DNA from: Actinomycetes bacterium
GTDB taxonomy: Bacteria; Actinomycetota; Thermoleophilia; RBG-16-64-13
Reading direction: 5' to 3'
DNA length: 35,866 bases
NCBI GenBank assembly: GCA_021372435.1
Contig: JAJFUK010000136.1
Location: 1-35,866 of the forward strand
The notes beneath the pieces are model-generated. The model was not told the DNA's origin. It saw only the letters and a program-made list of their open reading frames with translations, and searched no databases. Numbering within the stretch: the stretch's first letter is position 1; each line of letters begins with the position of its first letter. Shown in pieces: positions 3,647 through 17,155 of this stretch. Both the position numbers and the translations under genes were made by a program.

Positions 3647-5476
3647 GTGAGCCCATACATCAAAGACGCGAGTGTACAGGCGGTGCTGTCGGCGGCCAAC
3701 ATCGTCGATGTGGTCTCAGGTTACACCAGTCTGCGCAAGCGGGGCGCCACCTACACGGGGCTTTGCCCCTTCCACCAGGAGAAGACCCCCTCCTTCACGG
3801 TGAGCGCCGACAAGGGTCTCTACTACTGCTTCGGGTGTGGCGAGGGAGGCGACATCGTCCGCTTTCTTGAGCACATGGAGAACCTAACCTTCGCCGAGGC
3901 CATCGAGCAGCTGGGAGAGCGGTTCGGCGTGCCGATGGAATACGAGGAGGGCGCAGGACCGGACGCCGGCCGGAAGGACCGGGAGACCCGCCTGCTTTTG
4001 GCGCTCGAGAAGGCTGCGACCTTCTATCAGAGGTTCCTTTGGGAGACGGAGAGCGGCCGGGGGGCCCGTGACTATCTGGAGAAGCGGGGCCTTGGGGAGG
4101 AGGTCTGCCGGACTTTCAGGGTGGGTTATTCGCCGGACGAATGGGGAGGACTTCACCGGCGGGCGGCTAAAGAGGGCTTTACCGATCGAGAGCTCGACGA
4201 GGCCGGCCTCTTGGTCCGTCAGGCCGGTAAGACGTACGATCGCTTCCGGGGGCGTCTCATGTTCCCCCTGGTCGATCAACGTGGACGCGTCCTGGGGTTC
4301 GGGGGGAGGACCTTGAGGGACGAGACTCCGAAGTATCTCAACTCCCCTGAAGGTCCCCTATACCAGAAGGGGCATCTTCTATACGGTCTGTATCAGGCGA
4401 GACGGGCGATCGCCGAGGCCGACGAGGTGGTGGTGGTCGAGGGATACACAGACGTTTTGGGGCTCGTCCAGGCAGGTGTGAGGAATGTGGTCGCTTCCAT
4501 GGGCACTGCGCTTACCGACGCCCAGATCGGGCTCATGATGCGTTTCACCAGCAATGTCACGTTCATGTTCGACGCCGACCGGGCCGGTATCGAGGCGATG
4601 CTGCGCTCAGGAGAACTCGCCCGGAGCCATGCGCTCCGGCCCATGGTGGCCGTTCTGCCCAGCGGCCGGGATCCTGCCGAGGTGGCCGTCCAAGGAGGAC
4701 GGGAGGCGGTGGCCGCGGTGCAGGCCGGCAGGATATCGATGTTGGGGTTCGAACTACGGCAGGCGCTGGCCCGCAGCGACACCTCTACGGCCGAAGGCAG
4801 GGTGCGGGCCTTCGAGGAGGTACGCCGCCTCATGAGCAAGGCGGTCTCTCTCAAGGAACGAGAAGAGCAGATACCTCTGGTGGCCGACCGGCTTCGACTC
4901 TCGTCCGACAGCATCGCGCTGCTGTTGGGTAGTGGATCCCGGGCTGCTTCGAGGGGCAGACGCGCCGGCCGCGCAGGGCAGCCGTCCCTGACCCGGCGCC
5001 TGCTGGACGGCGAGACCGCCGTGGAGCGCGACTTCCTGGTGGCCGCCGCCTGCAACCCGGCCCGGGCCATCAAGATCCTTGAGGCGCTGACCCCCGAGCA
5101 CTTCACCGATCCTCGAAACAGGGAGGTCTTCAACGCGGTCCGGGACGCCTTCGCGCTCGTGACCGACCCGGACGACCATCGAGCGGCGTTCGCCCAACTG
5201 CAGGCCCACGCCCGCGCCGACTCCGAGGCCGGTCCGTTGTTCGTGCGGCTGGTCATGGAAGCCGACGAAGGCCGGTACTCCCCGACGGTACTGGAGGAGC
5301 TGCACCTGCGTCTGCAGGAGCAGTACCTGAACCGGGAGATCGCCGCCCTACGCGCGACGTTGGACGATGGCGGCGACCGGGAGCCCGAGCAGCGCCGTCT
5401 GGTACACCTCGAACGTCTGCTCCAGAGCGTACGGACCGGTCTCAAGAATCTCGATCCCGAAGAAGGGTGGGTCTGA
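3647..5476 (+). CDS. dnaG: DNA primase
   Basis: Synthesises RNA primers at the replication fork. The 609-aa protein has the three expected parts: a CHC2 zinc-binding domain (Cys40, His43, Cys61, Cys64), a TOPRIM catalytic core with Glu265 in [12 protein letters not shown] and the Asp309-x-Asp311 pair in FDADRAG, and a C-terminal helicase-interaction region (from about residue 450). Start is GTG at 3647; no in-frame alternative gives the complete zinc domain. The stop at 5474-5476 is separated by one base from the sigma-factor start, so primase and sigma factor form a macromolecular-synthesis-type operon with dgt. Confidence 0.97.
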
Positions 5477-5477
5477 G

Positions 5478-6560
<1,083 letters not shown>

Positions 6561-6730: not shown

Positions 6731-6824
6731 AGCCGGGCGGGCGCGGCAGTATGCCGGGCCGCGTGCATTAGACAGGGGTGGGCCCGCGCTGCGTGTCACC
6801 CCGGAACAGATGGAGGTTGTAGGG

Positions 6825-7025
6825 TTGGCTGAGGGGACTGTCAAGTGGTTTAGTCCCGAAAAGGGCTACGGATTCATTGAGCAGCCGGAGGGGGAGGATC
6901 TCTTCGTCCACTTCAGTGAGATCCAGGTGGAAGGCTTTCGCACGCTTTCCGAGGGACAGGCTGTTCGATTCGACGTGGTTCAAGGGCCGAAAGGCCTCCA
7001 GGCCGCGAACGTATCGCCGCTGTAG
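6825..7025 (+). CDS. csp: Cold-shock protein, CspA family
   Basis: Small single-domain RNA chaperone of 66 aa that binds single-stranded nucleic acid. It has the family opening (AEGTVKWF) with RNP1 (KGYGFI) and RNP2 (LFVHFSEI) and the standard OB-fold length. An ATG at 6810 is in frame, but TTG at 6825 is better: GGAGGT at 6812-6817 stands 7 nt before it and the resulting N-terminus matches the family. It is monocistronic, between its own promoter (6702-6730) and a strong terminator (7052-7079). Which growth condition induces it cannot be told from sequence. Confidence 0.95.
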
Positions 7026-7079: not shown

Positions 7080-7153
7080 GCACGGCCCGACCGCAGCCAT
7101 CGCGCCCTGACGGCGCAGCGTCGTCTTTCAGCAGCCTGTTAAGAACTTCGGTC

Positions 7154-7180
7154 TAAAGTATTGGCGCGAAAGGCCGATAC
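7154..7180 (+). promoter_or_regulatory. Sigma-28 (FliA/SigD)-type promoter
   Basis: TAAAGTAT (7154-7161), exactly 11 bp, then GCCGATAC (7173-7180). The known sigma-28 consensus is TAAAGTTT-N11-GCCGATAA, so each box matches at 7 of 8 positions with the canonical spacing. The predicted start is near 7187. No flagellar gene is in the window. The match is seen directly; recognition by a motility sigma factor is inferred. Confidence 0.7.
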
Positions 7181-7186
7181 AAGGGA

Positions 7187-7250
7187 TGAGAGTTTCCCAT
7201 TCAAACTCTCCTTTCTCCTCTCGGGCGCCTGACCAGGGCGCCCCTTTTTT
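7187..7250 (+). ncRNA. Candidate sigma-28-dependent small RNA
   Basis: Directly after the sigma-28-like promoter, a perfect 8-bp hairpin (GAGAGTTT 7188-7195 / AAACTCTC 7203-7210, 7-nt loop) is followed by a pyrimidine-rich linker and an intrinsic terminator ending in six Ts at 7245-7250. A transcript of about 64 nt would result, with no start codon behind a ribosome binding site. It could act as a trans-acting regulator or an mRNA-binding sponge. An alternative is that the terminator is leaky and the promoter also feeds gatC. No match to a named RNA family is recognised. Confidence 0.45.
7223..7250 (+). terminator. Intrinsic terminator of the candidate small RNA
   Basis: GGGCGCC (7223-7229) pairs with GGCGCCC (7237-7243) around a 7-nt loop and is followed by CTTTTTT. 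It lies upstream of the gatC start, so it ends a transcript that begins between csp and gatC. Confidence 0.8.
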
Positions 7251-7254
7251 CGGC

Positions 7255-7260
7255 TATAAT
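7255..7260 (+). promoter_or_regulatory. Probable -10 box for gatCAB
   Basis: A perfect TATAAT lies just after the terminator T-run and 78 nt before gatC. No good -35 box is seen at 16-18 bp; the region upstream is the terminator stem itself. Confidence 0.45.
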
Positions 7261-7338: not shown

Positions 7339-7620
7339 ATGATTTCCCGGCAAGAAGTAGAGCACGTGGCAAGGCTTGCCCGCCTGCGCTTCGAGGAGGA
7401 CGAGCTGACCCGCCTCCAACCCGAGCTGGGGCGCATCATCGACTACGTGCGGCAACTCGCGGAGTTGGACCTCTCCGGTCTGGAGCCGACTTCACACGCG
7501 GTGCCTCTGAAGAACGTGCTGCGCGCGGACGAGCCCGTGCCCGGTCTTAGCCAGGAGGAGGCGACCGGCAACGGGCCGGATGTGGAGCGGGGCCAGTTCG
7601 TAGTCCCACGGATAGCCTAG
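7339..7620 (+). CDS. gatC: Asp-tRNA(Asn)/Glu-tRNA(Gln) amidotransferase subunit C
   Basis: The small subunit that wraps around GatA and GatB and stabilises the amidotransferase turning mischarged Glu-tRNA(Gln) or Asp-tRNA(Asn) into the correct aminoacyl-tRNA. The 93-aa protein begins MISRQEVEHVARLARLRF and carries the family's ILDY-like helix (IIDYVRQLAELDLSGLEPT) and the conserved LRAD near the middle. ATG 7339 is chosen over the upstream in-frame start at 7186, because AGGAGG stands 8 nt before it and this gives the standard length. It heads the gatCAB operon. Confidence 0.94.
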   Translation: MISRQEVEHVARLARLRFEEDELTRLQPELGRIIDYVRQLAELDLSGLEPTSHAVPLKNVLRADEPVPGLSQEEATGNGPDVERGQFVVPRIA

Positions 7621-15352: not shown

Positions 15353-15427
15353 GGGCGATTAGCTCAGTGGGAGAGCGCTGCATTCACACTGCAGAGGTCA
15401 CTGGTTCAAATCCAGTATCGCCCACCA
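15353..15427 (+). tRNA. tRNA-Val (anticodon CAC)
   Basis: A complete cloverleaf can be drawn: acceptor stem GGGCGAT / ATCGCCC, D-arm GCTC-AGTGGGA-GAGC, anticodon stem CTGCA / TGCAG with loop TTCACAC (anticodon CAC, reads GTG), and T-arm ACTGG-TTCAAAT-CCAGT. Discriminator A and an encoded CCA end it at 15427. The element is integrated at its 3' end, and the serine recombinase stop codon on the opposite strand lies in the anticodon loop. The tRNA itself is intact. Confidence 0.97.
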
Positions 15428-17117
15428 TAAGTTCGTAGTTTGAACCGCCGGCCCGGAGAATCTCCGGGTCGTCGGCATTTCTGGACTCCTGATATCGACG
15501 CCGTTTGGCCTGCTGTTTCGCTTCTTGCTCAAGACGGTCGGGAAGAGAAGGGTCGAGCAGTAACTTGAAAGGCTCCGCCAGTTCATGGGTGACGGACCCG
15601 GTGTCGGAGACGATTAGCTTCTCGAAGAATGCCTGATTGAAGAGTCGCCGCGTTTCCGGTCCTGCATCCTTGTAGGCCGAGTAACAGTCGCGGGCCAGAT
15701 CAAGCGCCCTCTCCACGTTCTTCTCGATGGCGTCATACGATACCGAGACTACTTCGAGTTGCTGCCGTGCCTTCTCCAGTTCGCGAGTGATCCTCTGCAT
15801 TTCCTGCTTGAACAGGTCGGCCGGTAGCGCATCCTCATAGTGCAGGCGAAGGAGCTTCTCCCGTTCCTTGCTCAGGCGATTCATCCGTAGCGTCTCGACA
15901 CGCTCTGCCGCTTCTGCCTCTTCGCGTCTGTCGATGAGCAACTCCCGCAGGACTCCCGTGATCTGGTCGATGCGCTCCGGCAGTATCTGGATGGTCAAGT
16001 AGTGCTCCTCGATCTTCCTCTCGACTTCATCGATAGCCATGACCTTCTGGGTGCAGCTTTGCCGGTTGTACTGACGGCCGAGACAGAAGAAGTAGTGATA
16101 CTTGACCCCGGTTCGATTGCGGGGGTTCATGACGCTCAGCTTGCTGCCGCACTTGCCGCAGAAGATGCTTCCCTTCAGATAATGGTTGTAGCTCTGTTGC
16201 TTCTCACCGGCGTGGCGATGGGCAATCAGGGCAGCTTGTACTTGCTCGAATAACTCTCTCTCCACCAAGGGCTCATGCGAGCCTTGATAGGAAACACCTT
16301 CATAGCTGATCTCACCGACGTAGTACGGGTTCATCAGCATCTTGTGAAAGGCAGAGAGGGTCAACACTTTGGCTGGCGTGCGTGGTCCCGGTCGGGAGGT
16401 GAAGCCCATCTCGGTGAGCTCACGATGCAGCTCTCGGAGCGTCCACTCTCCCGTTGCGTAGAGTTCAAAAGCCATCCTTACGAACGGGGCGCGCTCTGGG
16501 TCAGGCTCGACTGTGCGGACTTCTCGGCCGTTCTCGACCAGTCTGATATGCCGGTATCCCACCGGCGACTTGTTGATGGTGCCCCCGGTCTTGGCCTTCT
16601 GCCGCATACCCTTGGCGACTTCAGTTGCCAGGTTGCGGCTGTAGAACTCGGCAATCGAGCTCATGATGCCGTGGAGCAGGAGGCCGCTGGGGGTCTCGTC
16701 GATGTTCTCAGAACACGACACGAGCACCGCGCCACTTTCTTTGATGGCGATCGTTATGGCTACGTCGTCGGCGCGATTTCGGGCCAAGCGGTCAACCTTG
16801 TGGACTATCACGTAGTCCACTGCGTGATCTCTGAGGTACCGGAGCATTTTGAGTAGCTCTGGGCGGTCAGCTGTCTTGGCGCTCTCGCCCCGGTCGACGA
16901 ACTCTTCCTCGACGAAGGCGTGCAGTGCCTCGGCTTTGCGGGTGCAGGCCGCGCGCTGGGCGGGGATGGAGTATCCCTCGGCCTCGCCGCCCATTTCCGC
17001 CTGTTCCTTGGTGGATACTCTCAGATAGATGAGCGCCCGCGCTTGATCGGTGGGGGCTTTTACCGCGCCGCGCCCGTCACCTTGTATCTTCTCTGCAACT
17101 GACGTGGTGTTGGGCAT
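15384..17117 (-). CDS. Large serine recombinase (integrase) of the element
   Basis: Site-specific recombinase expected to integrate and excise the element. The 577-aa protein has a resolvase catalytic domain with nucleophile Ser35 (ALIYLRVSTKEQ) and the conserved Arg helix (VDRLARNR), a recombinase domain (about 185-290), a Cys4 zinc ribbon (FCGKCG ... FFC ... SC) and a long coiled coil (about 390-480). ATG at 17117 is chosen over an upstream in-frame start because AAGGAGGG stands 5 nt before it. The last 12 residues (GDTGFEPVTSAV) are antisense to the tRNA, and the stop lies in its anticodon loop, so this tail is supplied by the chromosome. It is 38 nt downstream of the XRE gene, a likely shared operon. 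Confidence 0.94.
   Translation of the reverse strand: MPNTTSVAEKIQGDGRGAVKAPTDQARALIYLRVSTKEQAEMGGEAEGYSIPAQRAACTRKAEALHAFVEEEFVDRGESAKTADRPELLKMLRYLRDHAVDYVIVHKVDRLARNRADDVAITIAIKESGAVLVSCSENIDETPSGLLLHGIMSSIAEFYSRNLATEVAKGMRQKAKTGGTINKSPVGYRHIRLVENGREVRTVEPDPERAPFVRMAFELYATGEWTLRELHRELTEMGFTSRPGPRTPAKVLTLSAFHKMLMNPYYVGEISYEGVSYQGSHEPLVERELFEQVQAALIAHRHAGEKQQSYNHYLKGSIFCGKCGSKLSVMNPRNRTGVKYHYFFCLGRQYNRQSCTQKVMAIDEVERKIEEHYLTIQILPERIDQITGVLRELLIDRREEAEAAERVETLRMNRLSKEREKLLRLHYEDALPADLFKQEMQRITRELEKARQQLEVVSVSYDAIEKNVERALDLARDCYSAYKDAGPETRRLFNQAFFEKLIVSDTGSVTHELAEPFKLLLDPSLPDRLEQEAKQQAKRRRYQESRNADDPEILRAGGSNYELMVGDTGFEPVTSAV
15422..15490. repeat. attL: left 69-bp direct repeat
   Basis: Identical to 35594-35662. 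It begins at CCACCATAAG, the tRNA CCA end, and continues into the recombinase 3' coding end. Inside lies a perfect 7-bp inverted repeat, CCCGGAG-AAT-CTCCGGG (15452-15468), a candidate recombinase contact. Past 15490 the two copies drop to diverged homology. Confidence 0.85.
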
Positions 17118-17155
17118 TTGCTCCCTCCTTTCTTGCGACATGGCGCACTAGTTCA

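Follow-up and report, generated by a model that had tools for sequence, protein, structure and literature searches.

A conserved, predicted 63-nt RNA behind a WhiG-type promoter in Actinomycetota without flagellins

The interval between the cold-shock protein gene csp and gatC raises the question of which sigma factor would read the sigma-28-type promoter found there, and what the short terminated transcript behind it might do. The window analysed, 35,866 nucleotides long, is one contig of a metagenome-assembled genome (MAG) of 2.8 Mb, and the closest named relatives of this genome are MAGs of Actinomycetota / Thermoleophilia. Its plus strand carries rpoD, which encodes the primary sigma factor (5367–6560, start uncertain; assigned by Pfam/NCBIfam and synteny), csp (6822–7025, Pfam CSD) and gatC (7339–7620, Pfam GatC). 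The promoter is composed of the −35 element TAAAGT (7154–7159) and the −10 element GCCGATA (7173–7179). With a spacer of 13 nt, TAAAGT-N13-GCCGATA agrees with the WhiG/FliA consensus (−35 TAAA(G), −10 GCCGATA(A)) in both boxes and in their spacing. The −10 box ends 8 nt before a predicted small RNA of about 63 nt (7188–7250). This unit begins with a 5′ hairpin of eight perfect pairs and a 7-nt loop, CCCAUUC (7188–7210), which is followed by a 12-nt pyrimidine linker resembling an anti-Shine-Dalgarno sequence, CUUUCUCCUCUC (7211–7222). It ends with the intrinsic terminator GGGCGCCU-GACCA-GGGCGCCC and a U-run (7223–7250), in which the stem (7223–7243) is followed by CTTTTTT. The predicted fold of the 63 nt has a free energy of −25.4 kcal/mol (z = −4.68), and none of 200 dinucleotide shuffles was as stable. 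In this fold the C-rich loop and the linker, CUUUCUCCUC, which is complementary to ribosome-binding sites, are exposed. Judged from sequence, the unit is likely to be a short stand-alone transcript with its own terminator and a conserved structure; the original prediction had described its coordinates, promoter boxes, 8-bp hairpin and terminator between csp and gatC correctly. The TATAAT behind the terminator (7255–7260, plus strand) is probably a separate −10 element for gatCAB.

Two further features of the window were recorded. At 7088–7143, stopping 10 bp short of the −35 box, lies one member of a dispersed repeat (ACCGCAGCCATCGCGCCCTGACGGCGCAGCGTCGTCTTTCAGCAGCCTGTTAAG) of about 50–56 bp, of which the genome contains more than 20 copies. 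A similar sequence is also found upstream of the RNA in one relative (G014, L019). The repeat was rejected as a part of the RNA unit, being a dispersed repeat in its own right. On the minus strand, an open reading frame for a large serine recombinase overlaps a tRNA gene with its 3′ end (features at 15353–15424 and 15384–17141), which may mark an integrated element.

The predicted 63-nt RNA gene is conserved in a single flagellin-free family of Actinomycetota from soil and sediment. The covariance model R1, built from 15 copies and run over 199 genomes of the class, recovered 17 copies, spread over 15 of the 18 family genomes, with scores of 64–91 bits, and found nothing credible among the class genomes outside the family. 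Four matches at 23–25 bits from outside the family were rejected as homologues; they have neither WhiG boxes nor a complete RNA. A DNA search in 60 relatives detected the unit in most members of the family, and only short, unrelated GC-rich matches elsewhere. The RNA is always located between rpoD (or rpoD-csp) and gatC: gatC lies downstream in 15/15 genomes, and rpoD upstream wherever the examined stretch extends far enough. A scan of viral contigs for RpoD returned nothing. The genomes G003 and G002 possess a second, downstream tandem copy (L013 1623–1686 and L014 1370–1433, reverse strand). These second copies have no promoter boxes and an altered linker, with the hairpin and the terminator intact. 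One RNA copy per genome bears the boxes. In G005 and G011 the RNA is missing from the rpoD–gatC interval, where it would be expected, despite the presence of both WhiG and RsiG, which implies that it is an accessory and not a core member of the regulon.

The 5′ hairpin folds identically in the 15 copies folded, its loop reads CCCAU[U/C]C in the relatives, the linker is nearly invariant in the primary copies and the terminator stem is conserved in all copies. The covariation anticipated for the stem at 7188–7210 was found only in part. Two pairs of this hairpin show changes on both sides. Overall the covariation is slight (three pairs), as there is little variation in the sequence: of the eight pairs in each helix, five are invariant in helix 1 and seven in helix 2. 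Pair counts therefore back both predicted helices, but weakly. No Rfam 15 family reached its gathering threshold, the sub-threshold matches being attributable to chance (the best scored 18 of 50 bits, on the opposite strand), and no sRNA of this kind was found in the literature search. By these tools the RNA is a new family of a generally known kind, the small RNAs dependent on a motility sigma factor.

Conservation of both boxes had been named as a test of the promoter, and the boxes have passed it. Upstream of the orthologous RNAs, TAAA is found in 15/15 genomes, the following G in 14/15, GCCGAT in 15/15 and its final A in 14/15. The spacer is not conserved; the commonest base at each of its positions is shared by only 5–10 of the 15 genomes. 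The distance from the box to the hairpin is 8 nt in ten genomes and 9–11 nt in the remainder. Near-invariant boxes over a freely changing spacer represent the pattern of a promoter and not that of a coding region. The pattern TAAAGN14-15GCCGATA was matched 54 times in the 18 family genomes against six matches for the reversed control, and three times against none in the genome under study.

Every genome tested encodes a sigma factor of the FliA/WhiG family, and the one from the present genome exceeds the TIGR02479 cut-off. Its gene (C86:39239–39916), which is accompanied by a Mg-chelatase-like gene, dprA, an xerC-like gene and rpsB, also passes the WhiG equivalog model NF004935 of NCBIfam (353.3 against a cut-off of 343). 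The closest PDB chains, 6pfv and 6pfj, are both entitled only 'RNA polymerase sigma factor'; we take them to be the Streptomyces WhiG-RsiG entries. These sequence-based assignments identify the protein as the actinobacterial WhiG and not the flagellar FliA. The c-di-GMP-responsive anti-sigma factor RsiG was searched for with the Pfam model PF22802. Of the 18 genomes searched, 17 encode it as a short single protein, including 11 of 12 family genomes and the present one (C59:29600–29740, above the cut-off); it was detected in none of 14 control genomes. One genome of the same class, G020, contains six PF22802 matches, of which two form a tandem pair and two lie within long open reading frames; with one exception, each further genome searched has a single match.

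The predicted regulon includes further genes behind WhiG-type promoters. The three strict sites in the present genome precede the major pilin gene (on contig C79), the RNA and a gene for a 258-residue protein (L199 755–1621) with a hydrophobic N-terminal stretch, a Thr/Pro-rich region and no Pfam match. The strict promoter upstream of the major type IV pilin gene recurs in several relatives. Other genes behind the boxes in the family encode minor pilins, a PilT-like ATPase, FlgM-like proteins and PAS-type sensors. The small FlgM-like proteins of L184, L186 and L202 score just below the Pfam cut-off and occur in genomes without flagellin, which suggests a second anti-sigma factor besides RsiG. 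Strict WhiG-type promoters also precede genes for CxxCH-rich proteins resembling multihaem cytochromes (L180, L181 and L193, from G006 and G014); the pilus regulon may have a connection to extracellular electron transfer. In Rubrobacter, RsiG-WhiG has been reported to control type IV pili (Schumacher et al., PMC8325347); of the 20 sites predicted there, 12 had mapped starts, among them the pil operons and genes for c-di-GMP enzymes. With type IV pilus genes behind its WhiG promoters, the promoter set predicted for the family is of this RsiG-WhiG, c-di-GMP-linked type. No flagellin gene was found in the 18 family genomes, although four more distant members of the class have one, and pilus genes carry the promoter in place of the flagellar regulon expected for a small RNA dependent on a sigma-28-family factor.

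These results support the core of the original prediction, with WhiG in place of FliA and type IV pili in place of flagella. The promoter is of the sigma-28-family type, as proposed, and a sigma factor gene of that family is present; its assignment to FliA/SigD was not upheld. The proposed coupling to motility is supported for type IV pili, through a pilin with the same promoter, and not for flagella.

We consider it probable that the unit encodes a WhiG-dependent, trans-acting small RNA which is co-expressed with type IV pili and uses its loop and linker to pair with ribosome-binding sites. Transcription, the dependence on WhiG and c-di-GMP, the pairing mechanism and the target set are all inferred, on the basis of the conserved WhiG-type boxes, the conserved RNA, the presence of WhiG and RsiG in the genome and a pilin with the same promoter. 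According to the proposed mechanism, RsiG would hold WhiG at high c-di-GMP, and its release would free the sigma factor. RNA polymerase bearing WhiG would then initiate at about position 7188, while WhiG promoters of the same type would also yield the type IV pilin and other pilus parts. Termination at about 7250 would leave a stable 63-nt RNA. Its loop CCCAU[U/C]C and linker may pair with purine-rich Shine-Dalgarno and start regions and lower translation, so that the RNA would tune the output of pili or the transition to surface life. It would be tied to a life on surfaces by means of pili, and probably to the messenger c-di-GMP as well. Since RsiG needs c-di-GMP to hold WhiG in the published model, the RNA would be expected to rise together with the pilin as c-di-GMP falls.

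The loop and linker are the exposed and nearly invariant parts of the RNA. Their reverse complement, AGGAGAAAGGAG...UGAAUGGG, reads as a ribosome-binding site rich in purines and followed by an AUG. This antisense relation suggests pairing at translation starts, as in sX13 (PMC3771888). The search for targets covered the linker complement, the pilA leaders, L199 and the neighbours csp and gatC, and revealed no conserved mRNA target. The exact 11-mer complement of the linker, GGAGAAAGGAG, was not enriched above the control beyond the RNA's own copies. Pairing of the linker with pilA leaders exceeded that with shuffled leaders in six of six genomes, weakly (z from −0.1 to −1.9), and this signal may just reflect their Shine-Dalgarno sequence. 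A 12-bp pairing of the linker with codons 10–14 of L199 was rejected as a target since the gene is not conserved, and pairing with the neighbours csp and gatC gave no consistent signal. The wider proposal, that an undescribed RsiG-WhiG-gated small RNA family carries c-di-GMP information to translation by repressing Shine-Dalgarno-rich mRNAs during the type IV pilus programme, is put forward tentatively, as rather less than an even chance.

An action in cis, in which the gatCAB promoter is modulated by transcription or read-through that starts at the sigma-28 promoter, would suit the fixed position upstream of gatC in all RNA-bearing genomes. It would also suit the TATAAT, which in 14 of 15 genomes lies at a distance of 66–107 nt from the 5′ end of the gatC-proximal RNA copy. 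Interference of this kind would however not require the strict conservation of loop and linker, which goes beyond promoter and terminator; the RNA also remains intact in G009, where gatC is about 700 bp further off, and neither a leader ORF nor a known riboswitch was found. We regard this reading as unlikely. It is somewhat less probable still that the RNA serves as a decoy whose linker titrates a protein with a cold-shock domain or some other binder of single-stranded RNA. The linker is indeed pyrimidine-rich and unpaired in the predicted fold, csp lies directly upstream in most genomes, and the lack of a conserved mRNA target would fit. However, the RNA is retained in G014, G008 and G006, where csp was not found at the locus, and the loop is conserved as much as the linker. 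A short minus-strand gene with the ribosome-binding site GGAGAAAGGAG followed by ATG GGA AAC TCT ... (peptide MGNSHPLYR...L) is very improbable. Several genomes do have a 15-codon frame with a perfect ribosome-binding site, whose YR codons and stop the boxes overlap, but frame and stop are not preserved in six genomes (G003, G004, G009, G012, G014 and G016) that keep the boxes intact. Furthermore, it is on the plus strand that the terminator is followed by a U-run, and identical boxes precede pilin genes; the micro-ORF was rejected. Short motifs do arise randomly, as the six control matches illustrate, but a chance sigma-28 match beside a stray terminator hairpin is refuted by the boxes at 15/15 orthologous loci, the conserved RNA and the coherent regulon.

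If the wider proposal of a small RNA family that carries c-di-GMP information to translation is true, the WhiG regulon would have an RNA arm in bacteria without flagellin, and this arm may predate the role of WhiG in sporulation. The family seems to use WhiG, presumably under c-di-GMP control via RsiG, to bring a conserved RNA into its type IV pilus programme. This lends support to the idea that surface appendages were controlled by the WhiG switch in unicellular Actinomycetota. The locus also offers a compact, testable RNA from a little-studied actinobacterial family, in a phylum with few characterised small RNAs.

The known small RNAs of the flagellar sigma clade, from E. coli and Campylobacter, serve flagella. 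UhpU, MotR, FliX and FlgO of E. coli are sigma-28-dependent (PMC10578931) and resemble the predicted RNA in being short and belonging to a motility regulon under a FliA-family sigma factor. They are UTR-derived and flagellar, whereas the predicted RNA is stand-alone and intergenic and belongs to a WhiG-dependent type IV pilus regulon without flagellin. With WhiG instead of FliA and pili instead of flagella, the enterobacterial parallel originally drawn is an analogy only. CjNC1 and CjNC4 of Campylobacter, also short and sigma-28-dependent, exert weak, Hfq-independent repression of 5′ UTR reporters (PMC4626219); their context is flagellar and their phylum unrelated, and homology is not expected. 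The 115-nt sX13 of Xanthomonas, with three stem-loops and reported independence from HrpG/HrpX, pairs through C-rich loops with G-rich motifs near start sites, does not require Hfq and affects many type IV pilus mRNAs (PMC3771888). It is therefore a candidate model for how the predicted RNA may work, through a C-rich loop and pairing at the ribosome-binding-site region, although it has no WhiG promoter, belongs to another phylum and is not homologous by the Rfam search. A further related system is RsiG-WhiG of Rubrobacter (PMC8325347), which shares the sigma and anti-sigma families, the promoter consensus and the type IV pilus and c-di-GMP gene targets. Neither 'small RNA' nor 'ncRNA' occurs in the main text of that paper, and the regulon of the present family differs from it by the addition of a conserved RNA. 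Compared with the known small RNAs dependent on motility sigma factors, the predicted RNA would serve another appendage and respond to another signal.
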